This document shows positions 20,497-47,167 of a DNA stretch of 64,000 nucleotides, piece after piece. Positions within the stretch are counted from its first letter, which is position 1, and every line of letters begins with the position of its first letter. Source of the stretch: Ischnura elegans. Lineage: Eukaryota; Arthropoda; Insecta; Odonata; Coenagrionidae. A program made the translations under genes and the position numbers. The notes beneath the pieces were generated by a model. The model had not been told where the DNA came from, made no database searches, and saw only the letters and a list, made by a program, of their open reading frames with translations. The DNA lies in assembly GCF_921293095.1 (NCBI RefSeq), contig NC_060247.1:53603111-53667110 (forward strand), given 5' to 3'.

Positions 20497-20610
20497 TTAA
20501 AAGAACAGAGAGATGGCACTTTTCCACAGGTTCACTGTACTTGATAATGACCTAACGGTCGAAACGCGTCGTACTTTCAATAAACCTGTGCCATCTCTCT
20601 GTTCTTTTAA
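20497..20610. mobile_element. Foldback element of the GAAAC-core family
   Basis: Perfect 23-nt arms at 20497-20519 and 20588-20610 (TTAAAAGAACAGAGAG... and its complement) flank a unique centre. The centre holds TTGATAATGACC-TAAC-GGTCGAAAC at 20541-20565, in which GACC and GGTC can pair. The same core organisation occurs in the foldbacks at 43.4, 45.7 and 47.0 kb. No coding capacity. Confidence 0.8.
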
Positions 20611-21702
20611 TACGTACAAAAATATTCGTAGCTAATTTTAATGGCTGAAACTCAGGTCACCGGTAATACTATACTCTTAGGTTTCTCCTTGCGTTGTTAT
20701 TTTTTAGGCGCAATAGTTTTGCAAGAACTGCCGCTTCCGTATTCAGGTCGAAGACAGGTGATAGAAATTGACATTTTTAGACTGATGACATTTGTGTGAT
20801 ATTGCCTAAAAATAACAACGCGCGATGGAATTTGTAAGCATGACATTGACGCTCTAGCTCAATGAAAGCCATCAATTCTACTCAGGGTACTGATTCATCC
20901 TACTGGTCGTAAATAATTTAAAGTAAAAATGTATCGAAACTCTAATTTTCTACTTTTATTTGGCGTTAGGGGAAATAATTTTTAATGATTTTAGGGATGA
21001 GGTATCTGTTAAAAAGCAGAAAACTGTTTCGTCGGTGTTGGAGGATTCAAGCTATCTTCAGAGATTCGGGATGCAAGGCAGGAGAATATTAGGGAACTGA
21101 TGGAACTTGGCTTGGGTAATAATAATAATTCGACTTTATTGGGCGATATTAGGAATAGAAAGTCCCATCGTCCATCTAACCCCTGGGAAAGGGAGAAAAG
21201 ATGGGATGCAGCATGAAAATCATAGGATTAGAGTACTATGGATGAATGTAATGAAAATTAACTATCCGTGGGATTAGGAGTTCTCCTAAATATCAGAAGC
21301 TGACGGCGTTCGAGCCAAGACCGTTCCGTATTGCAGAAAATTGTCTAGCCACCGCAGTACCAACTCTCCCGCCTAATCCCCTTTAACGTACCCTCAGACC
21401 AAAAATGTCAAGCTCTTTCCACCCGTGCTGCCCTCGTATCGCTCCGTTTTCCTCCGTTCGCTCCACACAGAATACCGTTGCGTCAGCGAAGAGCCAGACA
21501 GAGACGCCGAGTCTGCGAAAAAACTTCACGCCTTGCACCACGGCGGCCTCCCGCTCAAAACCATATCCTCCACCCTCCTCCCCCCACTTCGCCCTTAAAT
21601 TTCAACCCCGTTTTTTTCTTCCCTGTGTCCTCCTCTTCGTGTTACCCACATCATATTCTTCTTTTTCAACCCTCCGCTTCCCCTCCCCAAATTCCCCTTC
21701 CA
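20611..21702. other. Non-coding sequence with short (AAT)n
   Basis: AATAATAATAATT at about 21119-21131 is followed by CGACTTTATTGGG, which looks like the tail of a dispersed repeat. CCTAAAAATAACAACG at about 20806-20821 recurs inverted as CGTTGTTATTTTTTAGG at about 20694-20710. The CT-rich frames at 21.4-21.7 kb are compositional. Confidence 0.4.
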
Positions 21703-22293
21703 CTGGGCTGGGTAATATTTCAAATACAAGTGTAATTAAATGCGTATTTGAAATAGATTTTTAATTTGTATTTGGTAATTAAAATATACGACCTGAATGT
21801 ATCTTGTATTTTGTATGTATTTCAAATACAGATTTTTGTTTTTTTCCCATTCTAAAATAAAAAAATACATTTCTAAAATACTTTTGAAGTAGATCTTATG
21901 GCACTTCTGTAAAATTGTGCTTCACAGATTACTTCGTTATCTTTAGAATCGTCTTCTATATGTTTGCAGCTATCCATAACGTGTCAAGGCAGTTTATATA
22001 TGTTGAAAGATCTCTTAGTTCCCATGAAAAGGATTTTGTATTTTTAAAGGTATTTTAAATGCTATTTTATAGCTTGTTTTTCGAATACCCAATTCAAAGG
22101 TATTTTGTATTTCAAATACATTTTGATAGGCATTTTATTTTTACTTCAAATACATTTGGAGCGGCATTTTGTATTTTTTATTTAAAATACATTTGGTATT
22201 TTTAATTTGAAATATTTTTGGAGCTGTATTTAGTATTTTTAATTTCAAATACATTTGTAGCGGCATTTTGTATTTCAAATACTCCCCGGCCTG
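21703..22293. mobile_element. MITE-like element made of TATTTCAAATAC modules
   Basis: The ends CTGGGCTGGGTAATATTTCA and, reverse complemented, CAGGCCGGGGAGTATTTGAA form imperfect terminal inverted repeats of about 26 bp. The right third (22085-22280) repeats a roughly 40-bp module of the form GGCATTTTGTATTTCAAATA with a palindromic centre. I see no matching TSD and no coding. The modules imply a non-autonomous DNA element with internal amplification. Confidence 0.65.
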
Positions 22294-23140
22294 AATTTTG
22301 CCCACATCACATTCTTTCCACTCCCCACTCTTTCGACCCTTCCCTTCCCCGTCCATCCATCCCCCGCATATTCTTCATTTCTTTCCCGTCGGAGGACGGA
22401 CACCACGAGCTCAACTGGCACAACCGTACAGGAGAGAGAGATGAGAGACGAGTACACAGCCGTCCCTCAACTCTTTACGGGGACACCCCCGAATCTGTCT
22501 AGACACCCACCCTATCCTCTCTCTCTCTCTCTCTCCACAGCTGCGAAAGACTCCCCTACTCACGCTCTGCCCGTCCCCCCCATCCCACTGCCCTCTTATC
22601 TTCACCTTCCCACCCCTCCCTACCCAGTGCACAATTTTTTTTCTCTCCACACATCTTTTGCACACACACGCACGCACCAGATCACATGCGTACGCGCACA
22701 CATACGAACTCACACTCGAGAGCTCACATGTGTACTCACATACTTTCCCATTTGCCATTTAGTCTCAAGGTTCTCCTTATCGAGCCGGTTTTCTTCCCTC
22801 TCCTCCTCTCATACTCTTTGTTGTTTTTCTCCTTGTCTCGTTTTCTTCCTTTTTATTGTTTCCCCTTCCCACCTCCTCCCTTCTTCCCTCTCCCACGTGA
22901 CTATCTCCGCTCCGTCCTCTCCTTCTCTTCCTTCCTTTCTCACGTAAGCACACTATATCTTCGTTTTTACCTTTCCTCGTTTCTTTTCGGCGAGACGGGT
23001 AGTAAATATTTACCCGATCGATTTTTTTCCTCTCCCCCTCTTCCCCCCCCTCCATCTGCTCCTTTATTTCGTGCGGCCGTTAGGTTTCTCCTGAATCACT
23101 ATAACTATCTCCCTGCTCACTTGCTCTCCTCCTCTTAGCG
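22294..23140. other. Pyrimidine-rich tract with CT and CA repeats
   Basis: C/T-rich + strand giving P, S and L rich artefact frames. It contains (CT)n at 22517-22535 and an alternating purine-pyrimidine stretch at about 22660-22740 rich in CACA, CGCA and GTACGC. No gene is supported. Confidence 0.6.
22517..22535 (+). repeat. (CT)n microsatellite
   Basis: About nine perfect CT dinucleotides. Confidence 0.9.
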
Positions 23141-26100
23141 TAAAGGCGAGCAAGAAGACTCAAGACATGGGTGATCCAAGAGCCGAATATAAACCTTAGA
23201 TATTTTTCCAAGTAGATAGATATGTTCAGACTTAAAATATTCTGTATAACTGGAAATTTATATTAACTCTAAAATGAAGTGAAAATTTTTGGTTCCGTGG
23301 TCATATATAAATCATATAACCAATTTTACTGACTAAACGAATAACAACTTACCCTTGTGTATTTCATCCTTGTAGAGCTGGTTGTATTGACCTTTCATTG
23401 TCAGTTTTTACCCCAATAATCGGTTTTTACGCTAGCCATAATGAAAATATTTTCAGAAAGTAATGACCTGTGGATTTCTTTTATTAATAAAGTTGGGAAT
23501 CAGCGAGTTCTTTTTACAATTTATTTTCCAAATTGTAGTACTCGGCGTCTTAACCAAAATGATGTTCTACATGGTGATACTTAAAATAGTCTCATTGTCA
23601 CCATTTTTTCTCCCCACGTTTCCTGTGGCTGTACGTGGTTGATAGTGTAAGAGATGCAAAAGACCATAATAGGATTCCATAATATTAGTTCAATTCACCA
23701 ATTGTATGACATAGAAAGTCTCGTATTCGTCAATGCAGAAGTCAGTCTGTAATGCTCTTTCGGCAAAAAGAAGACTGAAGTTTATATCCCTCATCGCCAT
23801 TGGATGCCATTAATGCTAGCTGAAGCTGTCCAACCATGCTCTTTTCCACCTTTAAATTTAATATTCTCACGTTTTTTTCAGGGGCATTCTACAAAATCTC
23901 TCTCGTAGATCAATAGTTTTTGGTGAGATATCTTATTCTAAAATATTCCTTGCAATCATATTCTCCGGGTTCCATAGACGCCTTGTCTTAGTGTTGTGTA
24001 CGTCGCGTCGTAGAGCTTTCATTTAGTTTTCTCCTCGTCATTCGCATCAGATTTCTTATTTCAGCCGTTGGCTTAATGCTTTTCATTATTTATTGGCAAG
24101 ACTGCATTTCGCATGAATGAATGAATTTTACGTTTTTCGGTACATTTTTTCTCCCTTGTATTATTTGACTTTTTTGGGCCGATGAAAAAAGCCTAACGCT
24201 ACATGAATTGCTGCATCAAATTCTCACTTGGCGTTATCATTCGGCAGGTAAATCGCTGGTCTATATGCTCATATTTGCTACAATGAACGCACGCGAGTCC
24301 ACCCTCAGTGTACGTCGACTCCCATTTGTGTTAATTCCATCCTCAGCGGACGATACCATAATATCTTATCTGTATTCACTCAAATTCCCACATGCGTCCT
24401 CACCCGTTTCTTTCTCATACCCGTCTGGGATGAGAATCGTATCTATCAGTATCTTATACTTGGTCAAATAGTCTGGAAGCGATACAAAGTCGTTTAAAAT
24501 GTTGCCATCCATCCGGATAGTGACTCTTCTTCCAAGATATTTTTTATTCTAAAATTTTCTTTTCCTCAACATGCGTACTTATTTCGCAGCAAACTTCCTC
24601 GATCATTATACCCTCTTACCTTCGTTTCTGTTCCATAATTCCTTCTCCAGGAAATGGCGTAAAGTCATACACATTGCTGAGCTCTCATTATCATTATAGC
24701 GCAGATATATTCATTACACTGCATTGAGTTTTTTTTACATTGTATTTAACTTTAGATAATATTTTTTCAAGTTTATTTAGACACCCAGGAATGGTTTATT
24801 GCTACCGGTTTTGCTGGGCGACGGTCCCTCCTATTTTTTGTACCGTAGTATCGCTCGGCTTCTTAAAATCCGGCCTCGGTTAAGATTGAAATCGTCGCAT
24901 TTCGGGGACGCGGTGAAATTTATGTGTCATTCGGAAATTTTTTCAATAACGGCGCAAGCGTTTTGCTGCATATTATTGATCCTGTCTTCGTGAGTCAATT
25001 TCTTTTGAAAGGTTAATGCACAACTTATTAAAAAGACTTCCAAAATGTTCCAAAATTTCACGAGTTTGAGACATTGTCACAATTTGTAACCTCTACGCGA
25101 TGTATCGAAATTTCCATACGAATATCGTGGGAATTTTTCGCCTTTCTCTGTTTGATTACGTTTAGTTTAATTTTGCCTCCGGATGCATCATCCATTGATG
25201 TTATCTTGTTCTAAGAAATGCAATAACTTATTATGACTGGTTATTAAAATACTCGGGAGTCAACTCAATGACATATCATGCATATTGTGAGGAATGTGAT
25301 GTTTATGTGGATTATTGTTTGCAGATTTTCTTCAGGTTTTCTTCTTACTTCTCTTGATCGCTCAGGTGTGTTCTTTCACGGAGCCTAGCCTCAACTAAGT
25401 TCGTATTTCACGGAAAAATTCTACTCTCCATTCATTTTCCCTGTATTTAATTTTATTATTATGCCCCAATTCACATCTAAATAGGCACTGGATATTGCCA
25501 GTCTTATTTTAAGTCTGAATTTTCTATAACTGAATTCTAATTAGTAAATGGAATCGGATAGTATGGTCATTAGTGGACTAGATGGCATACATTAACCCTG
25601 ATATGTCTAAATCCATCGTTAAATTCTTATGAGGGAACTTTCATTGCGTTTAAATATCTACGGCTTTACCTGCGCAGTCCACGTAACTTTTCGCAAACAC
25701 AAATCAAAGTGATTTCAAAGGACACCGTGATGTTATCAATATTGTTATCGCTCAAGTCTTATAAAAGATTAAGACCTCAGCAGGATCTGATGGTTATGCA
25801 TTATTTACGCGCTATTTTTATTCTTTTTGTTGAAGTGGAATTGAGGATAGACTTGGATTATTCCGAACGGCGTTTTATCTTTAAGTAATCACTGGGCACT
25901 ATTTGTCACAAATCTTTTGTGCGTGGTGTTTATTTAAATTATTTGTGGTTCCTTATCCGCATTGGGTCTCTGAAATTTTTCTTTCAATTATTATCGAATT
26001 CTCGATGTCAAAGACGTGACCTTAGGTAGCGTGTTCTGCAACGGCTGATTTTTCTGCATACCCCAGTCAAATGGCGGCTCTTAGTTCGTTGATCCACGTT

Positions 26101-28199
26101 TTTGACTCTCCTACAAATCTTTTTCTTGTTCTTGCCTTACTTAACGTAAACTTTCTCGTGTATTGCTTCCCCCGCCTACCCATTCGTAATCAGATGATGC
26201 ATTGACGTTCAACTGGAATGAGATCACTCTCTCTGACAAGGTTTTCAGCAGAGAATATGAGACGTTGGTCAATTTATAAATTTCATGCCGGGAAATATAC
26301 AAAAATATTTTTTTCCGAATGTTCTGAAAGGAAAGAAAGAAAATTCTTCAAGTTTCATCGGCGATCATGTATGTAATTGAGCCTAAATTATTCTACAAAA
26401 TGTACCAATTGCTACGCATTGCTCAGGCAGCATGGATGTTGAATTAGTGAATTAGGAGACATTTTGTGGTGTGATAGTTCGTTTATTGTACGTATCCGTT
26501 GAACCTATTCCCCAAGACGACTTCTTTAAGCTGCTTATTTGTGATTGCCTTTAGCTAAACTATTCATCCTCTCGTACATGAAGACAATCCTTCAGTTATT
26601 TCCCTGGTAAAGGAAACTGCCGCGTATAGTTTTCGTTTGACGCAGAGTGTATGACAATTAGATAATCGTTCTTCCCGACGTTAGTATTTTCACCTTTTGC
26701 AGAAAAGCAGTCAAAGCTTTAAAAAAGGCAAGCACTCCCAAAAATCCTGATTAATATCGGTGTACTCTCTGGTGGGACAAGAATTTTGACAAAGGAACGC
26801 AGAATTAAGGGCTTGATGAGATGAACGAAAAGTATCTGCTCGAGGAGACGAAACAAAGAGGATGACGAGGGGAGTGGAAAATGAAATCTCGGGCGCATGA
26901 AAAGGGCGCCAAAATGACTTACCTGCAGAAGTTTGCGAGGGACGCTGAACCGAGACGAGGACGCAAGTTTGGCGGAGGAAGTGCGCGGAGGCTGGAGGAG
27001 GAGGCGGGAATGATTTTGGGTGAGGAAGGGAGAAAGGAAGAGATGAATTTCAAAGAAGCGGTACAGTGAGACGGAAGTTGATTCTGTGATTATAGTCTTT
27101 GTGGAACGAGTCTGGGATTGGGACTGAAAAATCTGGCCTTTTCTTGAAATGAAACATCAAAACTAATTGGTCATCTTACATCCAATGATTCGCCGAGGGA
27201 TTAAAATACTTTGATGTGTAAGGTTGGTTTCTTATTTGCGACTTAAAATATTGGCGCCCCTAACATACTTTACGTAACTAAAAAATCTCAATCAATCATA
27301 AAAATATTCGCCTTCCTTTTCTCGATACGTTTATATTGATTCGGAATAGAGATTGCTTGCTACGAGCGAAGAAGTGATGACACTGAATGATATCCAATGA
27401 TTATTAATTATCCATAGATTTAAAAATACCTTCGTTTCCTCCAGATTTGCGATGCAGTCTAATAGACAATTGGAGTTCGAGTTATTTCAGCACATCTTAC
27501 CACTTATTATCAATAGCTTATTGAAAATAAATAACAGTTTAGAATTCCGAAATATGAGTTGAGATTTCTTGTTTTTTTTGTCGGCTAATAAACATGAATT
27601 TTGTAACTAGACGTGCGTGCGTGCATAAGGTGGAACGCGGTGTCCAAGTCTCAAAGAGTGTTGGATGCAGGCCTACAAGAAATCAATCTGTTGTGGTATT
27701 GTGCGTAATTGTACGCTAGGAGGGTTTGTATTAGAGAGAGAGCTAGACGGTTTGAGTAAGACGTGATGATGAGATTGGATTACAAACGGAAGTGGTAAAA
27801 AAAAGCTGATAAATGGGAGAAAAGTTACAACTGGTGAAATTGATCCTCAATGCTTTGTGGCAATTCTTATTCCTGGGTTCTCAAGATACATTCGGGAACT
27901 GCGATATCGTCAGTATCAATCATAAATGTCCGCGATAAAGATAACACTTAACTTTTACCACGTGGCGTTAATGAACAACCCCCTTGAAAAGTGTTTTTGA
28001 AAATAATATTTTTGCTATGCCAATGAGTTTCTTCGCATTTTTACTTCTTAGCTCACTAATTGTAAGTATTATCATTACCTTTATGCAAAGGAACGGGATG
28101 TTTTTCATGGCAGTATTTGTTTCTATTTTTCTGACGAATAGATCGGCGAATATACTGCAGCATGACTTAACGACTAGCTATCTCTATCTTACGAGATAG
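23141..28199. other. Five kilobases of AT-rich sequence, no gene recognised
   Basis: No RNA gene, no TIR pair found by eye, and only short open frames. One signal: on the minus strand a GC-rich stretch (27100-26924) ends in CTTCTGCAG followed by GTAAGTC, a strong donor that could mark a first exon. No protein is recognised. Confidence 0.4.
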
Positions 28200-28480
28200 A
28201 ACGGGACAGGGTGGAGCGAGATGGGATGGAAGTTCAAGAGGGCGAAAAGGAGAGAGAAGTGTTCTCGTGCGAGTCCCAAAATCCGCGCTACCTCGGGGGA
28301 AGAAGAGTGAGAGAATCGCAATTTGGCGGTGGTTATCGTCTACAGACAGGGACGGTGTGGAGGGGGGAAAGGAGGGAGGGGAAAGGGAGGGGAGACGGGG
28401 TAAATGGTAGGGGAGGAAGGGAGGATAGATAGATAGGGAGGGTGGGCGTGGGCGAGGTCAATAACACACACCAACCTTCC
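28200..28480. other. Purine-rich tract with (GATA)n
   Basis: G/A-rich + strand with GATAGATAGATAG at 28424-28436. Then 28480-28560 switches to C/T-rich, giving mirror-type open frames that I do not call. Confidence 0.55.
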
Positions 28481-28664
28481 TCTACACCCACGGCCATCAT
28501 CTCCCGACGCATCCCCCTACCTCCCCACTCTCCCCTCCGCCCTATCTTCGCCCGCCAGCAGCCACCCATATCCCTATAGTGCCACAGTTGTCTTCCATTC
28601 CGACGAAGGCCTCGCCGGGAGAGGGGTTGGGGTGAGAGGGGAGGTTGTTGGCTAGGAGAGTGAG

Positions 28665-29490
28665 GGTGTAATGGACATGAGAGAGAAGAAATCGCGGCGG
28701 TAATGAAGCGAAGAGGAGGAATGAGAAGAAGGCAGAACAAGCGATTGGAAAGAATGGGATTGAGAAGAGAATTAGATTGAATTTGTTTCTGTAATGCGCT
28801 GATCGGTCGATGATTGGCAAAGTACCTACTTATTTTGGAATAGGTGACGTGAATGCAGATGTGAGAATAAAACTCTGAGAATGTAATGGTGCATGCAATA
28901 ATTGTGTCTTTGCTATTTCACAAGGCAAAATCGACTTTTAAAAATGCTCATAATGTGATGTAAATGACGTTTAAAGAGAGAAAGAGGGAAGAATAGTGCT
29001 GGTTATTAAGCGAGAAGAGGAGGAATAAGGAGAAGACCGACCCAAGACAAAGAGAAGTCGCTGTAGCGATTTTAAAGAATGGGAGTATGGAGAGTATTGG
29101 ATAAAATTTGTTTCTGTCATTAATTTATATTTATTGCAAACTAAAACAGCACTAATTGACCTTTACGTGGGGGGTTTAAAAACATTTGGCAATTAAACGT
29201 TGACGTACATCCGTCATCACTGGGTAGGTTATCCCCAACCGTGTCCCGGATGGGGATAACCTACCCACGCGGGGCTCGAACGCACGACTTTCGGTTAGGC
29301 AGGCGAGTACTTCACGTCGTCGGCACCGCTGATTTTCCGACGAATGGAAAGGACTTATTTTCCATCAACGTAAATGCAGATGTGATTATAAAACTCAGCG
29401 AAAGAAATGGTGCTGTTAGAAATTGTTTCTTCGCTAATTCCTAAGTCAACATCGATTTAAAAAATGTTTATATTGTGATGTAAATGTGGA
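28665..29490 (+). repeat. Tandem duplication; second copy interrupted by tRNA-like SINE
   Basis: Copy A (28665-28975) and copy B (28976-29490) share GAAGAGGAGGAAT, AAGAATGGGA, AATTTGTTTCTGT, then after a gap in B ACTTATTTT, AATGCAGATGTGA, AATGGTGC and ATTGTGATGTAAATG. Copy B carries about 200 extra bases between CTGTCATT and GACTTATTTT, holding the tRNA-like sequence at 29221-29340. The insertion therefore followed the duplication, or was lost from copy A. Confidence 0.75.
29221..29340 (-). mobile_element. tRNA-like SINE fragment with 17-bp hairpin
   Basis: The minus strand shows GCCTGCCTAACCGAAAGTCG and the B box GTTCGAGCC, then GTGGGTAGG. The 3' part forms a perfect 17-bp hairpin: TGGGTAGGTTATCCCCA at 29221-29237 against 29251-29267. 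The cloverleaf is incomplete, so it is not a tRNA gene. Confidence 0.6.
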
Positions 29491-36264: not shown

Positions 36265-36272
36265 TAAGTGAC

Positions 36273-36538
36273 CATAGTTGGATATACGGGAGTCACAGAG
36301 CCCCCTCCAGACGCTTAAAAAATAGACAAGATTTTAATACGGTTATCATTACGTTCATTTTATTTTGTTTATTACGGAGCCTCAATCATTAAATTTAATC
36401 TTAATACCTTTTATCTCAAAATAAAGAGAATATTTTATACAGTAATTGTTGTATTTTGTTTTTAATCTCAAATATGAGAAACTTGTCAGACCCTTGCGCC
36501 ACCCCCCCACATAGAAAAAAATCCTGGATCCGCCCCTG
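36273..36538. mobile_element. Non-autonomous hAT-type element, 266 bp
   Basis: The right end, reverse complemented, is CAGGGGCGGATCCAGGA, a classic hAT terminus. The left end is CATAGTTGGATATA, a weak match (8 of 14). A perfect 8-bp TSD, TAAGTGAC, lies at 36265-36272 and 36539-36546. G-rich subterminal segments occur near both ends (GGGGGGGTGG and GGAGGGGGC on the minus strand). No coding sequence. Confidence 0.8.
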
Positions 36539-36546
36539 TAAGTGAC

Positions 36547-38620
36547 CATATTTAGTTCATCTTAATACCTTTTTAGCAACTAAATTGTGGAAAGCAAGGT
36601 GATATTCTCCACTAAAAAAATACGCCATAGGATACAAATTTTTGGTGATTTTCTTCTGTTAGTTAATTATCGTGATAGTTTATCCCTAAAATATGATAGC
36701 ATGCGTAATTAGTCACTTATGGTAGTAAGGGTATGTTATAGTTCACTCTTGATCTCTTTGCCTCCCGTGCTGTTTTCGAATATCTCCTCTTTATTGAGGT
36801 AACAGTTATTTTTTTATGGCCACCGGACGGCCGTTCTCGAGGGGGTTTTACGGCACATCACTTCCTCGCTCGTGAGTGTGCCTATATTTATCTCGGCGCG
36901 GCATAAAAAATGGTCTCGCGCGTGCATGAGATTTCCGCGACTCTTTTCTAGTTTCCGCATTCGCCATTCAACTCGCTCTTTTCGCTTTTTCGGGTTATTC
37001 ACTCTCTCAGACCACCTCACCTCCTTCTCCTCCTTGCTTGTCAGGAAATATTCCGCCAGACTGGTCAAGGGAGATGGGGTAGGAACCGTAGCCAAGATTC
37101 GCCATCTCCAACTTCAGGGACTTCGCTATTTCCCCCCGCTATGAAATGGCTTCATGCCAACGGAGAGCGGAAAAGGAAAATCGGAGAAAAAGACATGGAA
37201 TGTAGGATATACGAAAAGCAAGGAAGGAGAGAGAACAACTGGGGACCGGAAAAGAGAGAGAAAAACGTATAAACAAGAAATTTCTTCGGATGTGATTTCT
37301 CTATGAACATTGCGTAAAGTGCATCGCTTGAGGATATCCTTTGCTTTGAAGAAGTCTGATACGAGAGAGGGAGAAATGATCAAATGGAGTATTGGATGGA
37401 AAAGTTAGTATTTCTCGCAGAGGAAAATATCATAGTTTTTTTTTAATTCGGAGAAAATAAAATCATTTGAAGATAATAAAAGACTCCATTTTAAATTACG
37501 TTCCAAATGTAATATGTATGTTTAGAGGCCTAATGAAAATTGCCAGATGTAAAATCAGATCAGGACGGATCTTCGCATTCCGTTGTAAATGTAATAAACA
37601 GTTTTCGTCAAAACACCAAATATATCAATTTTCGTTCAAATGTAGCGAAATGAATTATTTATCTGTTCTTTGAGCAAGTCATTGAACAGTAAATGTTTAA
37701 GTATTTTTATGTTTGCAATGCGGTTAAAATCCTGATATCGGTAGTCCACTGAGGCAATTAGGATGTTTAGAACGTTGTAGATGATTTAAGCTGAACAAAG
37801 TCACAAAAAAGTAGAACCCGGTGAAGACAAACGATTTTCCCCTGCGGAATTGTTTTTCCTTTTACTACACTTGCGGATGATTGTGTAAGGACGCCTATGC
37901 CTCTAGCTAGTCCGCTTTTATTTCCTACCAAATAAATAATTGCTATACATAATTGAAATAGCATATTTACTCCGTCAATCACCTTTACGAATCACCATTT
38001 TAAAAAGCATTTACTCTTAAATTCCGTTAAACTTCGAATCAAGGCGTAATCATCGATGAAAAACACTGATTCGGGGAAATATTGTGCTCATCAAGCCAGC
38101 TTCAACCCATTACCGCCCACCTTAGTCATATAGGCTACATCCTACCATTCTGAATATATGAGGCTCTTTAAGAAATTCCGCACTCCCTTTTGCTATCGAT
38201 TTGTCGCAATTATGTTGTTGAAGGTCTCAATTACTGAATCCACTCATTAGTTTACTTTTGAAAGCGGTCGGAATAAGCTCACTGATGGAAAGGGACAGGT
38301 GCGAAACGGAAATTCAATATGAACGCCTTTTTTCAGTTAATTGCACGCAAGTATCATCAAGTAAACAGGAAATTGTATTTTGTAGATTATTTTATCTTCG
38401 CCTCATCCTTGAATAGACTTGCCTTGAAGATTCATCCTTTCTATCAAGGCTACCTCTAGAAATTGAACAAAATTAGATTCTAAACTCGTTACTACCCACT
38501 GTATTTGAATGATTCTGATTTGAATTCTAAGAGTGATTCTGAAGATTAACAAGTTGATGTATCGCCAAAATATCTCTCTGTATTACTAAAGACACCATAG
38601 GAGTAGCGTGCCTAAATATA
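36547..38620. other. AT-rich sequence with GC-rich patch at 36.8-37.15 kb
   Basis: The 36.81-37.15 kb patch gives frames on both strands (93 codons minus, 90 plus) without recognisable domains. A frame at 37467-37673 is cysteine-containing but unrecognised. No repeats seen. Confidence 0.35.
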
Positions 38621-38802
38621 TCCATGATAAAAGAAAACATATGGTGATTTCCACACTTTGAACACAAAACTCAACAACCGACCATGGTTTCAACACATTG
38701 TGTCATTTTCATGGAAATGTCACAATGTGTTGAAACCATGGTCGGTTGTTGAGTTTTGTGTTCAAAGTGTGGAAATTACCATTTGTGTCCTTTTATCATG
38801 GA
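38621..38802. mobile_element. Foldback element, about 80-nt arms
   Basis: The sequence is palindromic almost throughout. TCCATGATAAAAG at the left matches CTTTTATCATGGA at the right, and the 55-nt inner arms (from TTTCCACACTTTGAACAC to CACATTGTG) pair with hardly a mismatch around a centre at about 38710. The right half contains GAAACCATGGTCGGT and GTGTGGAAA, which also occur in order in the 43.4-kb foldback, so they are related. Non-coding. Confidence 0.85.
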
Positions 38803-38958
38803 TCCACAAAATCGAGCCTGAAACGATTTCATTAGTGCTTAAATATGTTCGTAATCGCAAGCAGATATTTTTGGCGGAAGTGGCGATACCTCCACTGCAC
38901 AAACGCTCGTCCACCGAATCAAATCCGCTCATCTAGTACTATTGGGGATGTGGTTCAG

Positions 38959-39261
38959 GTATATGGTATTTGGAGGAGGCGGCCGACAGCTGAGGTCATT
39001 TGCACCATGAGGGATGGGTAGGTGAGGAAGGGTGGAGAGAAACCCGGCGTCGGCATTAGCCTGCTCTGAGCGAAAGGCACCAAGGGGACCACGGAATAAC
39101 GTCCCATCCGACGGACGGAGTGTTGCGCTTGAAATGTTCTCCACACAACATTCAAGCAGGGATCGGGCAGTCTCTGAAAATTCTCTGCCGCAGCCGGGAT
39201 TTGAACCCGGGCCCACCGGGTGGGAAGCCAACACTCTAGCCACCACACCAACCCGATCCCC
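38959..39261 (-). mobile_element. Complete tRNA-derived SINE, 303 bp, with 9-bp TSD
   Basis: On the minus strand it starts GGGGATCGGGTTGGTGTGGT, with an A-box-like TGGTGTGGTGG, a B box GGTTCAAATCC (39197-39207) and a tRNA-like head of about 75 nt, followed by a tRNA-unrelated body. GTGGTTCAG occurs at both borders (38950-38958 and 39262-39270), as expected for target-primed insertion. The head is related to but different from the heads at 10.3, 29.3 and 56.2 kb. Two overlapping minus-strand frames inside it are artefacts. Confidence 0.85.
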
Positions 39262-39270
39262 GTGGTTCAG

Positions 39271-41584
39271 TGGGCGATTGTTGAGCGTTTTTGAAGTGGA
39301 GGAATGGATGGGTTAACCGATGGTGATAGCAGGTGAGGATCGTCTTCTTGGAGACGGCGGGAACATCAGTGTGGACATGTGAATATGGGTGCGCCTACTC
39401 CAAAACCTTGACCCCCACTTTCTTCATGCTCCCCCCCCCCCGCTCCTTCATCCGTCACTGCGCTAAAGCGAGAACTCGTGAGTTAGCTCCCTCCAAGTGC
39501 TCTCGCTTCACTATCGTGCTTTCCATATCAACTCTCCGCCATCATCTTCTTTCCTTCACCTCATCATTTTCGATCCAAAACCTTCGCCCTCCCACCCAAA
39601 TGCCCCTCAGCTCCTCTGCCCATCGCGAGGGTGCCAGCCGGCACCCTTCCATCCCCGCGGACCGAGGGGTTTCGACCCATCCACTCCCTATCCCCCGCCC
39701 TAGCAGCGCATCTCCTTCCTCTCGCCCTTTCCTTCCCGTCAGCTTCTTGAGCCATTTATCTTCGCTCGCCTTTTTCGGACACGGCTCGCCTTCTTTCGCA
39801 TCCGTCATCATGTAGCCGGACGCTCGGGATTTCCCTTCCATTCCCATCTCATCCTCCAAATCGACTATTTGTCATATTAACTTTGTGATGGCTAGAGACG
39901 AAATGGCGTAAACATACGTAAGAAGTTGATGTGGCGATGGTTCCCGAAAATTACGATTGTTTTCGAGGTACAATCATTGGGTGTTACCAAGATTGAGTGT
40001 CTTTCTCACGAAGACCTTCCAGTACGGAAGGCTTGTATGTTTGACCCAGGGTGATGCTAGACAGCTGATTCCAGTGGTTAAAATACCTTCTCGCAAGAAA
40101 AATTATTTTTATCGTATGTAGCCTACCTCTTGAAATGGCTTGACGTTGTTTCGATGATAATCTCACTTTTAGAATGCCGTCACGACATGGTTTATGATCA
40201 TCACTCTTTATTCACAGATACAACCATAAGGTTGGTTTAAAGGAGTATTTGTAGGGCTTACCTCAGATCAATTTACAGATGCGGATATCACAGATTCGGG
40301 ATAGGTTAACAAGTTTTTTTTCTCCAAGCAACTTCGAACTTCGAGAGTTTTTAGGTACATCCCTTTTATTCTTTAGCTTTAATGATTAAAATTTTGTCGC
40401 GTAATTTTTAAATTTTAATACGATTTACTAATATTGCCGCTTAAGCTTAGTCTTTTTATCCTATTTATTCTTTGCTTATGCCTAAAAACTCTCAGAAAGG
40501 GCATTAAATTATGTTTATTCCTATGTTTATAATCTTAACAATTCCATTTTCTTCCAGCCGATTTTCAGAATTTAGGAGCAAAAATCTTTCATGTCCGTAG
40601 TGTAATGAATATGCAAATTGTAGTTCGCTGAGGATTGTGTCTTCGGTGGAGACTTGTCTGTGCCTCGATAAAACAGGTGATCGTGAGTTATATGCGCGTT
40701 TCTATCTTATTCGCTAATTTTTATTCTAATACTTATATGCAACTTTTTGCGATGTTTCCGATGTTTTATTCGAGACTTGATTAGTTTTATAACATCAATT
40801 TATCGAATGTATAAAAAGTGGCTTATTTTGCAAAATAAAAATATTTTAATTCGCAAAAATTGAATGAGCAAAATTTAATTTCATACAACTCTCGGTTAAG
40901 GTTAAAGTACTCCAATTTTCTAATGGCTTTTTGTAAATGACAGTGACTCGAAGCCCTCGCCTTATGTGGTGCATTCCATTAGGCCCTCAGTCTGAGGTTA
41001 ATATTTCACCGGATGACGACAGGCGGAGACGAAAGAGTTTCTAGGATATGAATCGAAGGGAGTGGGAAGGGAGAAATGATTATGACTTCATGAGTGCGCG
41101 ACATAATCGCTCTACCATATTCGAATCTATTGCTCCAAAAGATTTTGAGATTTTCTTCTACAATGGAATAGACCATCGATCAATCTTTCTTACCTCTGCT
41201 AATAACATTTTCAACAATAATATAACTTTCTGATGAATTATTTTGGCAGTTCTTTAAAGTTCTGGAAACAACTAAAAAAAATTCATATTTGACCAAAGTT
41301 GTAGGTCCTGAGGGTCCATGTGTTTTGACATGCATTTTTTAGACACAATTTTTTAAATATACATGCCATTCCCATATTCTTATTTAAGTGCGCCAAAGGA
41401 GGACGTTGTATTTTCCTTCGTTAATACAGCGAAGTCCCCAAGTACTTATATGTTTTCATCGATTCAGTCAAGTCTAGTCTTGCTGTCCTCCCTTGCTTGA
41501 TCAACTCTCAAGAATTTTCCTTGTGACGGAAAGAGAATCCGTTCTTCTCCGTCCACTAGCGATCAATACCAAGTTGCGATCTTA
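39271..41584. other. Mixed sequence; CT-rich 39.4-39.85 kb, AT-rich after
   Basis: 39.4-39.85 kb is C/T-rich and includes an 11-C homopolymer at 39431-39441. The 160-codon + frame and the 105-codon - frame there are low-complexity. 39.9-41.55 kb is AT-rich with nothing recognised. Confidence 0.4.
39431..39441 (+). repeat. Poly-C homopolymer
   Basis: Eleven consecutive C residues. Confidence 0.95.
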
Positions 41585-41621
41585 AAGGTTGATGTCCATG
41601 GATTAGGACATCAACCTTTTG
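41585..41621 (+). repeat. Perfect 14-bp hairpin
   Basis: AAAGGTTGATGTCC, an 8-nt loop, then GGACATCAACCTTT. It sits at the left edge of the GC-rich island. Too short for a typical miRNA precursor, and there is no evidence of function. Confidence 0.8.
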
Positions 41622-41639
41622 TTTTCCGAGAGCTCCCAC

Positions 41640-42060
41640 TGACTCCGAGACGCGTCGCGCGTCACGGAGGAGTGGAGCGGGAGGGAAGCCAATGGAGCGA
41701 GCGATCCGATTCGGAGCGGCCAAAGCCGTCGAAGGAAGAATTGCAGGAGGAAGACCGCGCGCGCCGATCACCTTGAGGCGTCGCACCTGCGATCCCGCGG
41801 CGTGGTTGTGTAATCGCGCCAGCCAGCGACGACACCCACGCCTTCCCCGCCACGCCCGGAGGACTCGTGGAGGGCGCGGCGGCTACACACCGCCACCGCC
41901 AGCAACATCTATAAAAACCCCGTTTCCACCCCCCACCGCGGGCCCTGGGGGCGGCCGCCCCCTTCCCGCCTCTCGCTCACTCCACACACACACACCGCGG
42001 TCTCTCAACCGCCGCTGCCGCGAATCCTTCCTTCACGACAGACACTACGCTGGCGAGACT
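41640..42060 (+). promoter_or_regulatory. GC/CpG-rich island with TATA box, candidate promoter
   Basis: This 400-bp island is dense in CpG within AT-rich surroundings. TATAAAAA is at 41910-41917. About 30 bp downstream lies a perfect 16-bp palindrome, GGGGGCGGCCGCCCCC (41947-41962), then CT/CA-rich sequence that could be a 5' UTR. A 215-codon + frame runs straight through the TATA box (41692-42339), so it is unlikely to be the product. No downstream protein is recognised. A donor-like ACA/GTAAGTAA lies at about 42388. Confidence 0.35.
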
Positions 42061-42109
42061 CGCTGCAAAACACTTGTCTTTCGCGGAGAGGAAAAAAAGC
42101 CAGCCATTA

Positions 42110-42142
42110 CTCGCACCAAAAGGCCATTGCCCTTGGTGCGAG
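42110..42142 (+). repeat. 10-bp hairpin downstream of the island
   Basis: CTCGCACCAA and TTGGTGCGAG pair around a 13-nt loop. Possibly part of a 5' UTR if the TATA box is used; function unknown. Confidence 0.7.
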
Positions 42143-42339
42143 CAATTGAGACGAGGAAGAGATTCTTTCAGGTTTCCAATTCTACACAGCGTGGTGTTGA
42201 TGCCAAGTCTTGTGAATTAACGTTTTCTTCCGGTTTCCTCACTCTGCTCTTTGTGCGGACGGATAGCAAGAACGTATTATTCATTCAAAATATCTCCTTG
42301 TGGGTTCTTAGCATGCGAGTTTTAATCTGTAATGTTTAA

Positions 42340-43088
42340 GCTGCCGAGTCACCAACAAAACTACTTTAACTAGTTTCCATCAGACAGTAAGTAATAAATC
42401 AGACGCTTAGTTATAATGCTACTGTTTTGATGATAACTTTAGTTTTGCTGTGGTGCATAAAATGAACACGATAATGGTTACAATTCGTCGGTTTTATTAT
42501 TTCCCAATCGGTATTTTTTTCGTGGGAGGAAATAGCTTGTTGTGATGAGAGTGGCGTTTGGGGATTACGTCATTTCACGGGGGAGCGAAAATTTGTCGTA
42601 GCGGTCTCGAGGAAGACAGCCAGTCGGCCCTTTCCCTCCCACTCCCATGCCTCTTCTCCCTCGTCTGTCTCCGCCGCCGATCGAGCCCGTCAAAGATGGA
42701 AACAGGTCGTGTGCTGGCCGTATGTCCAGCGTGTTTGTGCCTGCGGATCCAGCATTTGGACCGGAAGTTGACATCACGGCGGCGGTGAGGAGTCTTGCAA
42801 CCTATCGGTGATCGTTTTTAGCGAGTCGGCCGACTGTGCGGAGGGCCGACGGAGTTTGCGGCTCCCACGGAAGGCTTAGCTCGTTCTGAAAGCAATGTCG
42901 AGGAATGTATCTGTTGCTGTATTTTTGGTATGGAACGCTGATCCTCCGTTCAGAGCTGGGCGATGAATATAGTGAGCATACATAAATATGACGCACGTAT
43001 TTTAATAGCAGAAGTACGTTTCCGTCGAAAATTTATATATTCATATTACGAAAATTGTAGGCACTGAAAGAATCAAAATTTTACTTCA
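42340..43088. other. Mixed sequence, GC-rich 42.55-42.9 kb
   Basis: The GC-rich patch yields short frames on both strands with no domain. The remainder is AT-rich. Confidence 0.35.
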
Positions 43089-43178
43089 AGGTTTTCCTCT
43101 CGGGTTCTACACAAGATAAATGCATTCGTATTGGCCGATCTTTCGGAAAACGACCTGTCTTCCATTCTCACTCTATGA
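43089..43178 (+). pseudogene. Coding-like fragment with SENDLSSIL peptide, copy 1
   Basis: The frame reads RFSSRVLHKINAF then VLADLSENDLSSILTL and stops. It matches a second locus at 53747-53833 with conserved spacing, R-x-SS-x3-H-x2-N-x2-VL-x-D-x-SENDLSSIL, while silent and conservative differences accumulate. That pattern suggests descent from a protein-coding sequence. In both copies an AG precedes the frame (TTCAAG/G here), so it may start at a 3' splice site. Family unknown; possibly part of a transposable element. Confidence 0.45.
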
Positions 43179-43442
43179 ATATCGAAATCTTCATAAATTC
43201 ACTGATTATTTATTTGCTTTATTATTTCAATTAAATATATTTTTATATATTTACTCTGTATTTCCATCTCCATCAGTTCGACTACATTGAGACTGTCAAC
43301 TATCTTTTTTAGCTTAGCGTTTCCCGCTTTAATGATTAGAAATTGGGATGACAACTAATTTAAGTTTACAATATTAACGCTTAAAAATTTCAGTAGGCCA
43401 TATTTTCAGAAACGCCTATGAATATATCGATTTCTCTTTCAG

Positions 43443-43593
43443 CTTATTAAAACAACTTGTCTGTTTCCACACTATTTTATTTTCACCGACCAGGGTTTCG
43501 GCAACTTGTGCCACCTTGACAATGGCACAAGTTGCCGAAACCCTGGTCGGTGAAAATAAAATAGTGTGGAAACAGACAAGTTGTTTTAATAAG
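43443..43593. mobile_element. Perfect foldback, 71-nt arms, 9-nt loop
   Basis: Arms 43443-43513 and 43523-43593 are exact complements (CTTATTAAAACAACTTG... outward). The right half carries the family core TTGACAATGGCACAAGTTGC then CGAAACC, in which GGCA and TGCC pair. It is followed by TGGTCGGTGAAAATAAAA and GTGTGGAA, the same order as in the other members. Non-coding. Perfect pairing over 71 bp implies recent formation or ongoing conversion between arms. Confidence 0.92.
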
Positions 43594-44561
43594 CCGGATA
43601 TCAAAGATTGTGCACACTGAAGCACTTCATCAAAGACACTGTGCTTTGATTTCTCTTTCTATAAATGAGAGGAGAAATATCCTGGTAATTCAGTTTTATA
43701 ATCAGCTGATTGTGTCGCCCCTGAATTAAAGTTATATATACTTCTATTTCTCACACCCTTGAAAATTTTTCTCCGCTCCCTTTATTTTAATGAAATATAG
43801 CGGAGTGAGCGCGGAATGAATCCACGCCTGCGATGAGGAGGGCGTGAAGACTGGTTTGAGTGTCGCGCGGGAGGCGAATGGTAGGTCGGCGGCGCGTTGC
43901 ATGTGGCGGGGTCGACCGGCGGGGCGGAGGAGGGTGGTTCTTACCAGAAGAGTGCCGAGGGGGTGCGGGGCGGGAGAAACACGTCGGGGCGTATATTGGC
44001 GTGCGGGTGTGTGCTAGCGTATTTTGTGCCCTTCTGACCCGGAGACGCCAAGGCCAGAGACGGAGAGAGAGAGAGGGCACTGCACTCCCTCAGACTCTGA
44101 TTTCCCCTTCCCCCTCCCCTACACTTTATCTCCCCCAACCCCCTCCTCGCATCCCCCCCTTCACTTTTTTTTTCACCCCTCGGTTCGTTTCAACCACCTC
44201 CCCCTTCCCCTTTCACTCCCCCTCTCCGCCGCCCCGTCGTGCTATCTTCCTCCTCCTCCTCCCGCCCCCCTCCGTCGCTAGGTTCCCCTCAGAGCCAGAC
44301 ACCAACCCCCTCTCGGGAGTCCACCCGCGAGACTCACGCCATTTCTTCCCCTCCCCCCTTCCCCCACCCTCTTTCTCGCTGGCTCACTCGCCAGTCTTCC
44401 CCGAGCCTCCTAGCTCTTACCCTTTCATGTACGAGTTTACTACACTCGAGCGACAACAATGTTTTAAATCGAGTTTCTACGTGCAATTGACCATAATATT
44501 TATTTATTTACTCCTTAATTCATTCCATGAGAGCAAACATGCAAATAAATTCATCATGTAG
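43594..44561. other. GC-rich island and pyrimidine tract (43.8-44.42 kb)
   Basis: The GC-rich part at 43.8-44.05 kb passes into a long C/T-rich run. A 233-codon + frame (43860-44561) is G/R rich then P/S rich, as expected from composition. (GA)n at about 44065-44076. I do not call a gene. Confidence 0.5.
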
Positions 44562-44792
44562 GATAGAAAGGGATAGGAACACATGGTAGTAAAAGAAAGA
44601 GGACAAAGGTGCTGTGGTAGATGGAAAAAGTCAGAGATCAGAAGGTAAAAATGCGGCCTGACTGGGACTCGAATCCAGGACCTCCCGTTTTTCGACCGAA
44701 TGCTCTACAAGTTACGCTACCAGGACGCTTAAATTTACAATGATTTCGGCGGGGGTGTATGCACAAAAAACCCTTTGCTTTGGCCCACAAGA
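44562..44792 (-). repeat. tRNA-like dispersed repeat, copy 2
   Basis: Homologous to 10239-10455 on both sides of the tRNA-like core. The minus strand at 44726-44653 has GTCCTGGTAGCG, an anticodon-arm-like TTCGGTCGAAAA, a B-box-like GATTCGAGTCC and CAGGCCGCATTTTT. It keeps the anticodon region that copy 1 has lost. Confidence 0.7.
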
Positions 44793-45197
44793 ATAAACAA
44801 TAGATGGTACTGGGGCAGCTCACCACTCACCAACAAAAGAAATGGACAAGAACACAAGAGTGAAAGGAAAGATGTACTCTCATATGATAGCTGGAAAGAT
44901 ACATGAGAATGCGTTCTTTATATTTTACATGCTTACATACAGCATTTTCGCCAGTTTGCAGCGATGCAGTAACATGAAATATGAACGTAAACATTCAAAC
45001 AATGAATACAGACAAAAAATAGTAAAGAACGCAAATTCAAGACACGTTGAAAGGGAGGTAGAGGGAGTATTTACTCGTCGATTAAATGGAGATAAACATT
45101 AGATTTAAGATTTGATTTATCGGTAAGCAAAGTGCAAATAGGCGCTGATGAAGATGTAAGAACATATCGAATCGCCAGCAAAAATGTTTGTATTTCA
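44793..45197. other. AT-rich sequence, unrecognised short frame
   Basis: An 86-codon frame at 44842-45102 is lysine, asparagine and histidine rich. No family recognised. Confidence 0.35.
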
Positions 45198-45290
45198 TTC
45201 CCTTACCAATACTCCGAGATTATTTTAATTATGCATTTCGTTCCCTGGCTAATACTCCAAAATTATTTTAATTATTATATAAATTGAGGG
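45194..45290 (+). repeat. Two-copy tandem repeat, period about 47 bp
   Basis: ATTCCCTTACCAATACTCCG, then AGATTATTTTAATTAT, recurs as GTTCCCTGGCTAATACTCCA, then AAATTATTTTAATTAT. Confidence 0.75.
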
Positions 45291-45509
45291 CATGGAAATT
45301 AAATCAAGTCACATTTGGTCACTGTGTAACCCATTATAACCTAATGTTGCTTCTAAGCAACATCAAAAATGTATAAATTTTCTGCTTTATTTAGGAAATT
45401 TCTAAACTATGCATTTTTTGTGGTGAAAATATTAATGACTAAATATTTAGCTGCCAAGATAATTATGATTGAGTGTAAAATTTTCAAGAGAAAATAAAAT
45501 CACTTCGTA

Positions 45510-45600
45510 TTTTCCACACAATTTTAATGTTTTGCGACCGGTTTCGACGTGTTCTACATAATTTTCAAGCTGGACTGCCATTTTATTTTATCTTTTGATT
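45510..45600 (-). repeat. Solo degenerate copy of the GAAAC-core repeat
   Basis: On the minus strand CTTGAAAATTATGTAGAACA is followed by CGTCGAAACCGGTCGCAAAA, then ATTGTGTGGAAAA. This is the order of blocks seen in the foldback arms, here without an inverted partner. Confidence 0.6.
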
Positions 45601-45700
45601 TCATTTTATTTTATCTTGTATAACTTCCACAAAGTTAATTCACCAACCATCAACTTCATTAAAAATTTCAAGTTTTCAAAATGAAAAGTCTTTAAATTTG

Positions 45701-46008
45701 TTCATGGTTAAATAAAAAACACAGTACTATTCCACAACCTTATATTTTTGCAGTCTACTAGTTTCAACGTTACAACGTCATTATCAAGACTAACTGAGAA
45801 AAGCATACAACATCCAGCCTTATTTATCCAACAATAGTGTGAGGGAAGGAGGAGGGGTAAATAAGGCTGTTGTATTGTTGGATAAATAAGGCTGGATGTT
45901 GTATGCTTTTCTCAGTTAGTCTTGATAATGACGTTGTAACGTTGAAACTAGTAGACTGCAAAAATATTAGGTTGTGGAATAGTACTGTGTTTTTTATTTA
46001 ACCATGAA
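45701..46008. mobile_element. Foldback element, about 137-nt arms
   Basis: Arms 45701-45837 and 45873-46008 (outer end TTCATGGTTAAATAAAAAAC) pair almost perfectly around a 35-nt centre. The family core occurs in each arm: right CTTGATAATGACGTTGTAAC then GTTGAAAC (45921-45948), left its complement (45761-45788). ACGTT-GT-AACGT is self-complementary within the core. No coding. Confidence 0.92.
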
Positions 46009-46995
46009 TATCTCATCGTTCCACCAAGTAACGCCTAAATCTGTTGATTTTATTCTTGAAATTTGATTTCTCCCAGCAGCAGCTCTGGGTTGGAAAGGGT
46101 TAAAATCCTTCCGGTTGTGTTCATCCTCTGTTTTCCCTTCTCGTGACTCTCTCTCTCTCTCCGTTTCTCTATCTCCTTCGCTCTGCCCTTCCCCTCCCAC
46201 CCTTCCCCCCCTTCCTTCGCCAATCCACCCACCCACTCTCCTCTCCTACTCTCTCGCTATTCCTCTCCATTGACCATGTCCGCGGGGGCCAAGGCTCTCA
46301 CAAATTTTGAGATATGTTCCTCGTCTTTCCTTTCGGGAATGGGTTTTTATATTTATTTTTCCTTCTCTCTCCGTGTCATCAAAGTTGGTCGTCTTTTGCC
46401 GTAAATCTTTAATTTACGTCTTTTTTTATTGTAATTTTTATGACGATGGCGCTCGAATGTTCAGTAGGGTTATTCTTGTGGTCCCTTGATGTTGCCCAAA
46501 CAGTAGCTCCGACTTCCTCCTTTACTTTTCGCCTTCTTGGTCCATCTCCGCCGGATATTGTGGGCGTTATCCTCTACGAGCTGTGCGGAGCTCGGCTCTG
46601 GAAATTTCATCGCGAATGTGAACCGTCTTGTAGTCCTTGTAATTCAATGTGCCACCTTCATGAACTCAACGTTTCTGGTTCGCCGGCATAGGAATAGCGT
46701 GTCTTCTCTCTCGTCTTCTAATCTGTTCTCGCAATTCCTGGTATCTCTTCTTGATATGTTCCTATCTCATTTCAGCATAGTTACCTTTGAAGGTGAGAAT
46801 ACTCTTTCTGTTAAAAAGGCTCACTTCGCTAAAGGCCATCTCTTTCGGCAAGCAGTCTTTCATGAATACACATTGCATATACCACGCAGATGCATGCTGA
46901 ACTTTTATTTCTTTCGATTTTCCGGAATTATTATCCCTATTTATTCAAATGAAATCGACTTATTTTGGCGTGACTTGGTGGAACGATGAGGTATT
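46009..46995. other. Pyrimidine-rich patch then mixed sequence
   Basis: 46.1-46.27 kb is CT-rich with (CT)n at about 46147-46162. Frames at 46.44-46.99 kb (83 and 150 codons, overlapping) have no recognisable domain. GAATCGACTTATTTTGGCGT-type sequence adjoins the next foldback. Confidence 0.35.
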
Positions 46996-47167
46996 CATGG
47001 TGAAACAAAAATCGAGTATTGTTCCATAAACTTTTATTCGCTGTCAACTAGTTTCGACGGCTATAGCGTCATTACCTGATTGTCTTGATAATGGCGCTGT
47101 AGCCGTCGAAACTATTTGACAGCAAATAAAAGTTTGTGAAACAGTACTGGGTTTCTGTTTCACCATG
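46996..47167. mobile_element. Foldback element, about 75-nt arms
   Basis: CATGGTGAAAC at the left pairs with GTTTCACCATG at the right. Inner arms carry the family core, right TTGATAATGGCGCTGTAGCC then GTCGAAAC (47085-47112), left its diverged complement from 47051. After the core come AAATAAAAGTTTGTGAAACA and GTACTG, shared with the 45.7-kb member. Confidence 0.88.

Follow-up and report, generated by a model that had tools for sequence, protein, structure and literature searches.

Foldback repeats of Ischnura elegans with a minimal hammerhead core, read as leader insertions of Penelope-like elements

A 64,000-nucleotide stretch of the genome of the damselfly Ischnura elegans (assembly GCF_921293095.1, NC_060247.1, positions 53,603,111 to 53,667,110 of the forward strand), referred to below as the window, carries foldback elements in which the motif TTGAYAATGRC is followed by a short self-complementary segment and then by GAAAC. 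What is this motif, and why do its copies lie head to head? A preliminary description of the window had suggested selection on the core as a structured nucleic acid. Judged by its sequence, the core is a type I hammerhead ribozyme with a minimal stem III, and we read the foldback as the product of an insertion rather than as a functional structure. We put at about 0.77 the probability that the units are insertions of Penelope-like elements (PLEs) carrying U3-A8 hammerhead leaders, and that the foldbacks arose by priming on both target strands.

Read 5′ to 3′, an intact copy consists of one strand of stem I, UUGAYAA, an extra U, stem II (GRC..GYC), GAAA, stem III (which begins A-C and ends G-U), an unpaired A, C or U, and the 3′ strand of stem I. 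Compared with the hammerhead core CUGANGA...GAAA, residues U4, G5, A6, A9 and the GAAA are present, U3 and A8 replace C3 and G8, and one U is inserted before stem II. This identity had gone unrecognised in the preliminary description, whose covarying segment is stem II and in which the pairing of helices I and III was not noticed.

Copies for a structural alignment came from the window and from 86 loci, 8 of them obtained via search and 78 by place. These loci, L001-L086, are the first places with exact cores listed on contig C1, a sample that is not random; L003 and L006 were omitted as overlapping L002 and L005. The arms contained 125 core candidates, 110 of them with a readable stem III; 104 were distinct, and 94 passed a filter on core and stem III. 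The three helices around the core covary in this set. Pairing exceeded the best of 1,000 shuffles, a statistic that ignores the relatedness of copies, at stem I pairs 2 (82/94 paired, best shuffle 58) and 3 (71/94; 55) and at stem II pairs 2 (85/94; 78) and 4 (85/94; 59). The same held for stem III pairs 3 (87/92; 62) and 4 (33/34; 27), counts to be discounted somewhat, as the boundaries of stem III were picked by pairing and are biased toward it. A reduced set with a single random row for each stem type (44 rows) still exceeds the shuffles: pairing is seen in 35 and 33 rows at stem I pairs 2 and 3 (best shuffle 27 and 28), in 40 and 35 at stem II pairs 2 and 4 (39 and 29), and in 37 of 42 at stem III pair 3 (29). 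Stem I pair 1, stem II pairs 1 and 3 and stem III pairs 1 and 2 are near-invariant and uninformative on covariation. The core searches required GAA(A), and row selection required A15.1 and U16.1, which leaves position 17 as the only test of the cleavage-site rule: it is C in 61 of the 94 rows, U in 18, A in 14 and G in 1 (before the filter, 2 of 104 rows had G).

Positions 3 and 8 are base-paired in the active hammerhead (PMC3088659; this and the other papers cited by accession are represented here by excerpts), and they covary genome-wide. The genome (1.72 Gb, 110 contigs, with the window on contig C2) holds 6,856 exact matches to the U3-A8 pattern, TTGAYAATGRCN{5,30}GAAAC, against 82 for the reversed pattern, and 2,602 to the C3-G8 form (reversed control 18). 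The wobble combination U-G has 596 (control 62) and C-A has 493 (control 28), so that the two Watson-Crick forms total 9,458 matches and the other two 1,089; the raw odds ratio is about 61, where matches stand for copies and not for independent events. At least 41 of the C-A places (CTGAYAATGRC..GAAAC) share a constant 41-nt span and probably belong to an unrelated dispersed repeat. Several natural hammerheads with U3-A8 are reported in the excerpt of PMC3088659, and such variants are said there to be active in vitro. The proposed selection of the core as a structured nucleic acid is supported: pairing is kept despite change in stem II and in helices I and III, and the 3-8 pair covaries in counts over the whole genome.

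Ribozyme activity, and action as a dimer, are what such a core predicts. A stem III this short, and often self-complementary, would be expected to work through dimers, and energy folding lends this weak support, with a double hammerhead in the predicted homodimer for seven of ten sequences (not S1a, S2 and S4). Several observations weigh against the ribozyme assignment. Pairing did not exceed the best shuffle at stem I pairs 4 and 5 or stem II pairs 5 and 6 (94 rows), and stem III is a perfect palindrome in just 57 of the 94. The Rfam hammerhead models found no match in the window (E up to 5) or in ten loci (E up to 10); a locus with a C3-G8 copy, L020, was likewise unmatched, and the short stem III is the probable cause. 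A loose structural descriptor run on the window gave 4 matches, where 40 shuffles averaged 0.7 and reached 5 at most; since the window by itself is not significant by this descriptor, the case rests on the genome-wide data. Precursors of microRNAs were considered and rejected: the many weak Rfam microRNA matches on the foldbacks lie below gathering scores and often fall on both strands, as for long hairpins.

The ribozyme might also be a relic, its pairing inherited from active ancestors and the present source leaders serving only as promoter and binding site. Such a history would suit copies that are mostly truncated fragments, and cleavage is dispensable for insertion of an Anolis PLE in vitro (PMC11167929, excerpt). 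Several subfamilies with different stems, however, retain both pairing and position 17, and both matched 3-8 forms are abundant where unmatched or wobble forms are fewer; we think a relic unlikely.

What carries the ribozyme? By their architecture and by a sibling element, rather than by a linked open reading frame (ORF), the units are read as fragments of PLE leaders, or pseudo-long terminal repeats (pLTRs). Of 14 single copies from three subfamily groups, 8 have a TATA-like box 32-40 nt upstream of the core, and in 38 of 44 foldback arms the match to the leader reaches less than 15 nt upstream of it; box and arm ends together place the probable RNA start just before the core and the ribozyme at the 5′ end of the RNA. 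Downstream, several subfamilies enter a reading frame with a similar beginning, read by eye as MNISSFHQVTPKSVDFI, NIKDFHRITPDTVSF and MDIKNFHKIEPDTILY. The layout of a pLTR (promoter, ORF start inside, optional tail) is thus found here as the TATA-like box, the ORF-start reading and the two groups of 3′ ends described below.

The sibling is at locus L088, where an 824-codon open frame (823 residues searched) matches RVT_1 (1.7e-10) and GIY-YIG (6.4e-6), both above Pfam cut-offs. After this ORF stands a C3-G8 hammerhead with a 5-bp stem I, AGCGC CUGAUGA U GAUGAUUACUCAUU GAAA CCCGGGUC GCGCU; before it stands the 3′ part of the same leader, its core cut off, and the frame starts MEYHIVNQELVNF. 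At L087 an 840-codon frame (839 residues searched) with both the reverse transcriptase (RT) and the GIY-YIG domain is followed by a hammerhead-like motif, again C3-G8. A link to a longer retroelement, raised in the preliminary description, finds indirect support in that this sibling combines an open RT/GIY-YIG frame with a like leader layout; its core is of the other form. That no ORF was found directly behind a U3-A8 leader counts against the assignment, L089 and L090 being rearranged or inverted relatives of L088. At L090 an inverted leader arm lies directly before a related, 5′-shortened ORF copy. There the leader gives way to ORF sequence immediately behind GGGTC, where the ribozyme is predicted to cut; a microhomology of 2 nt is an alternative explanation. 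We infer that the U3-A8 leaders have, or had, an RT/GIY-YIG ORF of their own. Of 2,199 candidate places 150 were scored with the Pfam GIY-YIG model, which matched all but one (149). By eye, 32 GIY-YIG places form 16 minus/plus neighbours within 5 kb, with none in the reverse order among the matches listed (for example C2:47393575(-)/47394607(+) and C9:45956(-)/48119(+)); longer Penelope copies seem to lie head to head too. Within the window itself, none of ten open frames gave a Pfam family over the cut-off.

The arrangement of the leader fragments bears on how they were inserted. Thirteen leader anchors recovered 143 arms in the window and 84 loci, and adjacent arms less than 300 nt apart are head to head in 57 cases, tail to tail in 2 and in tandem in none. 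Counted from the core, 60 of the 143 arm ends lie between about +75 and +99, and another 67 at or beyond +115. Because the anchors themselves extend no further than about +120 to +134 (+90 for one), the sharpness of the long end is partly built in, which detracts from it as evidence; a copy-to-copy comparison with 230 nt downstream gave the same two end groups (15 of 95 cores with fewer than two relatives were dropped, and 57 of the other 80 have a head-to-head partner). Among the 57 head-to-head pairs, 54 are classifiable: 52 join a long and a short arm, 2 join two short arms and none joins two long ones. The long arm sits on the left in 25 of the long-short pairs and on the right in 27.

These figures bear on two other views of the family. 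The copies might be non-autonomous elements resembling short interspersed nuclear elements (SINEs) or retrozymes, carrying a hammerhead and moved in trans by a PLE or a long interspersed nuclear element (LINE), and not truncated PLE leaders. Thousands of short copies and the lack of a linked ORF would suit this, and hammerhead retrozymes are known from animals (PMC7229834, excerpt). Yet the copies enter a reading frame with a common beginning (read by eye), they end at two sites, like pLTR and tail, and a sibling PLE has a like leader layout before its ORF; moreover, tandem repeats of the kind seen in animal retrozymes (monomers of about 150-450 bp) were absent among adjacent arms less than 300 nt apart. 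We hold this origin to be improbable. The inverted-repeat shape, together with a stem III that is often a perfect DNA palindrome, could also suggest a DNA transposon or a foldback family of miniature inverted-repeat transposable elements, with the core as a protein-binding palindrome and the covariation incidental. Here, however, it is the inner ends, at the junction, that are conserved, and the outer ones stop at either of two sites, while the 3-8 covariation and the near-absence of G17 fit a hammerhead; this idea can be set aside almost entirely.

About half of the pairs lie within target duplications. Flanking direct repeats are mostly 12-13 bp long and score 10 or more in 27 of the 57 pairs, against none of 57 chimeric controls (highest control score 9). 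At L001, a foldback inserted in a LINE, the homologues L021 and L010 show the empty site, and the duplication measures 12 bp. Positions 1-3140 of L010 hold open frames that, by eye, resemble a gypsy-type polyprotein and an envelope-like protein.

How, then, does one insertion come to hold two opposed arms? A reverse transcript of the leader might snap back at the complementary segments of the ribozyme and be copied back upon itself, deletions at the centre later trimming the arms. Such self-priming is preferred for head-to-head Penelope palindromes in PMC3846280 (excerpt); the junctions lie at or near the self-complementary segments of the ribozyme, and both arms at L037 share a stem II variant unique in the copy listing. 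In the 46 pairs that could be compared, the arms differ mostly by private changes (36 shared, 223 private; 14% against 24% in random pairs), which indicates that both arms derive from the same or very similar RNAs, as self-priming would also have it. But self-priming predicts a nested second arm and no fixed internal stop, and 52 of 54 pairs are long plus short. With a looser short-end limit, which gave 53 pairs for the nesting comparison, the start of the long arm lies downstream of that of the short arm by more than 5 nt in 20, the two agree in 26 and the order is reversed in 7. In those 20 pairs neither arm is a simple copy of the other, because the tail is confined to the long arm and the 5′ part to the short one; at L012 the arms do not overlap at all. 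Finally, 30 of the 46 comparable pairs contain at least one arm that resembles an arm of some other locus more closely than its partner, and in 14 this is true of both arms, though the decay of old copies can produce this. On balance the data favour priming on both strands over self-priming, not decisively; self-priming keeps a minor but real share of our expectation.

On the both-strand route, which the asymmetry of the arms suggests, the element protein would cut the two target strands about 12 bp apart, and both exposed 3′ ends would prime reverse transcription on leader RNA, one strand at a distal site (with the 'tail') and the other at a proximal site (without it). The two complementary DNAs (cDNAs) would meet near the 5′ end of the RNA and be joined, giving a head-to-head foldback inside a target duplication. 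Each arm would then be a leader cDNA, running from near the presumed RNA 5′ end through the hammerhead to one of two RT start sites near the beginning of the ORF. A purified PLE protein does cut and extend both strands, and two RT start sites flank the 'tail' (PMC11167929, excerpt). One could go further and envision coupled reverse transcription off both strands from two leader RNAs held in one particle by a dimeric hammerhead, the palindromic stem III acting as dimerisation signal as well as ribozyme part, with one RNA primed with the tail and the other without; we offer this as a speculation of low probability.

Other observations are at odds with the both-strand reading or fit its competitor equally well. 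Thirty of the 57 pairs have no duplication scoring 10 or more, among them all five in the window (scores of 9, 9 and 6, and two with none). In all 57 pairs both arms fit one anchor or two sibling ones, a result that self-priming would produce too, and the non-nested arms could stem from later deletion at the palindrome centre, 7 of the 53 pairs showing the reverse order and 26 being even. In the assay of PMC11167929, as excerpted, RT start sites are alike on both strands, whereas the ends differ here; the PLE hammerhead of that study needed protein and was dispensable for insertion in vitro, and no RNA sequencing ends were found at its cut site.

The window holds five foldback pairs, three of them long plus short, one short plus short (43.4 kb) and one unclassified (20.5 kb). 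Their arms, hammerheads and possible target duplications are as follows.

20451..20532, minus strand: long arm of the 20.5-kb insertion, leader positions 42-127, running into the ORF start, without the ribozyme
20536..20618, plus strand: partner arm of the 20.5-kb insertion, starting at leader position -5; anchor alignment to 20590, inverted repeat to 20618; end unclassified
20537..20574, plus strand: predicted hammerhead of the 20.5-kb insertion; stem I GUAC 20537-20540 with GUAC 20571-20574; core UUGAUAAU 20541-20548; stem II GACC..GGUC 20549-20560; GAAA 20561-20564; stem III ACGCGU 20564-20569; C17 at 20570, the predicted cleavage site
38617..38711, minus strand: short arm of the 38.6-kb foldback, degenerate core with A at position 3
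38716..38821, plus strand: long arm of the 38.6-kb foldback, by anchor alignment
43441..43513, minus strand: short arm of the 43.4-kb foldback, by anchor alignment
43513..43609, plus strand: other arm of the 43.4-kb foldback, ending at +93 and scored short; one of the two short-short pairs
43512..43552, plus strand: predicted hammerhead of the 43.4-kb foldback; stem I CACC/GGUG; core UUGACAAU 43516-43523; stem II GGCA..UGCC 43524-43536; GAAA 43537-43540; stem III ACCCUGGU 43540-43547; C17 at 43548
45510..45600, minus strand: degenerate single relative, GAAACCGGTC and GTGTGGAA block, stem II lost; by eye
45689..45700, no strand: possible target duplication of the 45.7-kb insertion, left copy, TCTTTAAATTTG, 1 mismatch
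45701..45795, minus strand: short arm of the 45.7-kb insertion, hammerhead intact, core from 45787
45914..46055, plus strand: long arm of the 45.7-kb insertion, reaching ATGAATATCTCATCGTTCCACCAAGTAACG..GATTTTATT (ORF start)
45918..45957, plus strand: predicted hammerhead of the 45.7-kb insertion; stem I AGUC/GACU; core UUGAUAAU 45922-45929; stem II GACGUU..AACGUU 45930-45943; GAAA 45944-45947; stem III ACUAGU 45947-45952; A17 at 45953
46054..46065, no strand: possible target duplication of the 45.7-kb insertion, right copy, TCTTGAAATTTG
46937..46948, no strand: possible target duplication of the 47-kb insertion, left copy, CTATTTATTCAA, 1 mismatch
46948..47074, minus strand: long arm of the 47-kb insertion, broken off inside the core
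47082..47167, plus strand: short arm of the 47-kb insertion; core UUGAUAAU 47085-47092; stem II 47093-47107; GAAA 47108-47111; stem III partly decayed
47169..47180, no strand: possible target duplication of the 47-kb insertion, right copy, CTATTAATTCAA

An inverted-repeat search returned 20489-20519/20588-20618, 38620-38803 overall, 43442-43513/43523-43594, 45701-45836/45873-46008 and 46996-47074/47089-47167. Exact cores begin at 20541, 43516, 45922 and 47085 on the plus strand and at 45787 on the minus strand. Repeats and cores together agree with the preliminary description, which had placed the motif, its pairing segment and GAAAC in foldbacks near 20.5, 43.4, 45.7 and 47 kb. Its positions were right, and the arms extend further than it gave them: at 20.5 kb the left arm to about 20451, at 45.7 kb the right arm to about 46055 and at 47 kb the left arm to 46948. 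The downstream blocks it had seen in the 38.6-kb foldback are present at 38620-38803, where the minus arm additionally has a degenerate core, ATGAAAAT..GAAACCATGGTC. What it called a solo copy at 45510-45600 does contain GAAACCGGTC and the GTGTGGAA block; it is degenerate, with a poor stem II, and was missed by the leader-anchor search and recognised as a relative by eye. The target-duplication scores of the 45.7-kb and 47-kb insertions (9 each) equal the highest control score; the scoring found no credible duplication at 20.5 kb (score 6) and none at all at 38.6 and 43.4 kb.

A second hammerhead-like family, with a CTGAAGA core and stem III ACTGT, occurs at L012:8466, L023:7162 (+), L023:7133 (-) and L051:352 (-), and the two copies at L023 are likewise head to head. 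Upstream of the minus-strand core of L023, a single copy with its promoter region lies within a longer polypyrimidine foldback whose left arm breaks off in the leader. The window contains two further inverted repeats, 54248-54326/55208-55286 (95%, 881 nt between arms) and 56193-56254/56420-56481 (97%, 165 nt between arms), neither of which the leader anchors match, and two tRNA matches above the Rfam cut-off, at 1122-1193 (60.4 bits) and 56382-56449 (41.1 bits).

Minimal type I hammerheads of PLEs have reportedly been described by Cervera and De la Pena in 2014 and by Luense, Weinberg and Breaker in 2017. PLE hammerheads are of type I, lie in the pLTR, have a very short stem III and are expected to act as dimers. 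The leaders of I. elegans share the type, the pLTR location and the short stem III, and differ in that the commoner form is U3-A8 instead of C3-G8. Thousands of short, well-delimited copies in one genome, with both ends readable, amount to natural data on how PLEs insert. The one-long-one-short near-rule in our sample argues against simple self-priming and for the both-strand priming made plausible by in vitro work of 2024, and the coexistence of C3-G8 and U3-A8 in one genome is a natural double-mutant test of a catalytic base pair.

The U3-A8 swap is not new, because the excerpt of PMC3088659 already reports natural hammerheads with the same compensated core pair; there it comes under rare core variation, whereas here it is the commoner of two forms, with thousands of exact matches in one genome. 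The term 'U3-A8' did not occur among the literature matches listed, and other literature stating both-strand priming for such Penelope inserts was not found, judged by titles and the openings of abstracts. According to the excerpt of PMC3846280, an inverted pLTR typically lies next to a Penelope insert, the target duplication is short, and one of the inverted pLTRs may carry a 31-bp tail. Like Penelope there and Anolis Poseidon PAc in the excerpt of PMC11167929, the foldbacks described here combine a TATA box and an ORF start inside the pLTR with head-to-head inverted pLTRs, a short target duplication and a tail on one arm; the RT/GIY-YIG ORF is found here in the sibling. Unlike the inserts in those excerpts, they consist mostly of leader only, and 12-13 bp is the commonest length of their duplications, where the excerpts give 8 and 9 bp. 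The finding stands and belongs to a known kind, namely hammerhead-bearing Penelope leaders; what is distinctive is the predominance of U3-A8 together with the near-rule of unequal ends (52 of 54), where the known Penelope inserts, as excerpted, have an optional tail.

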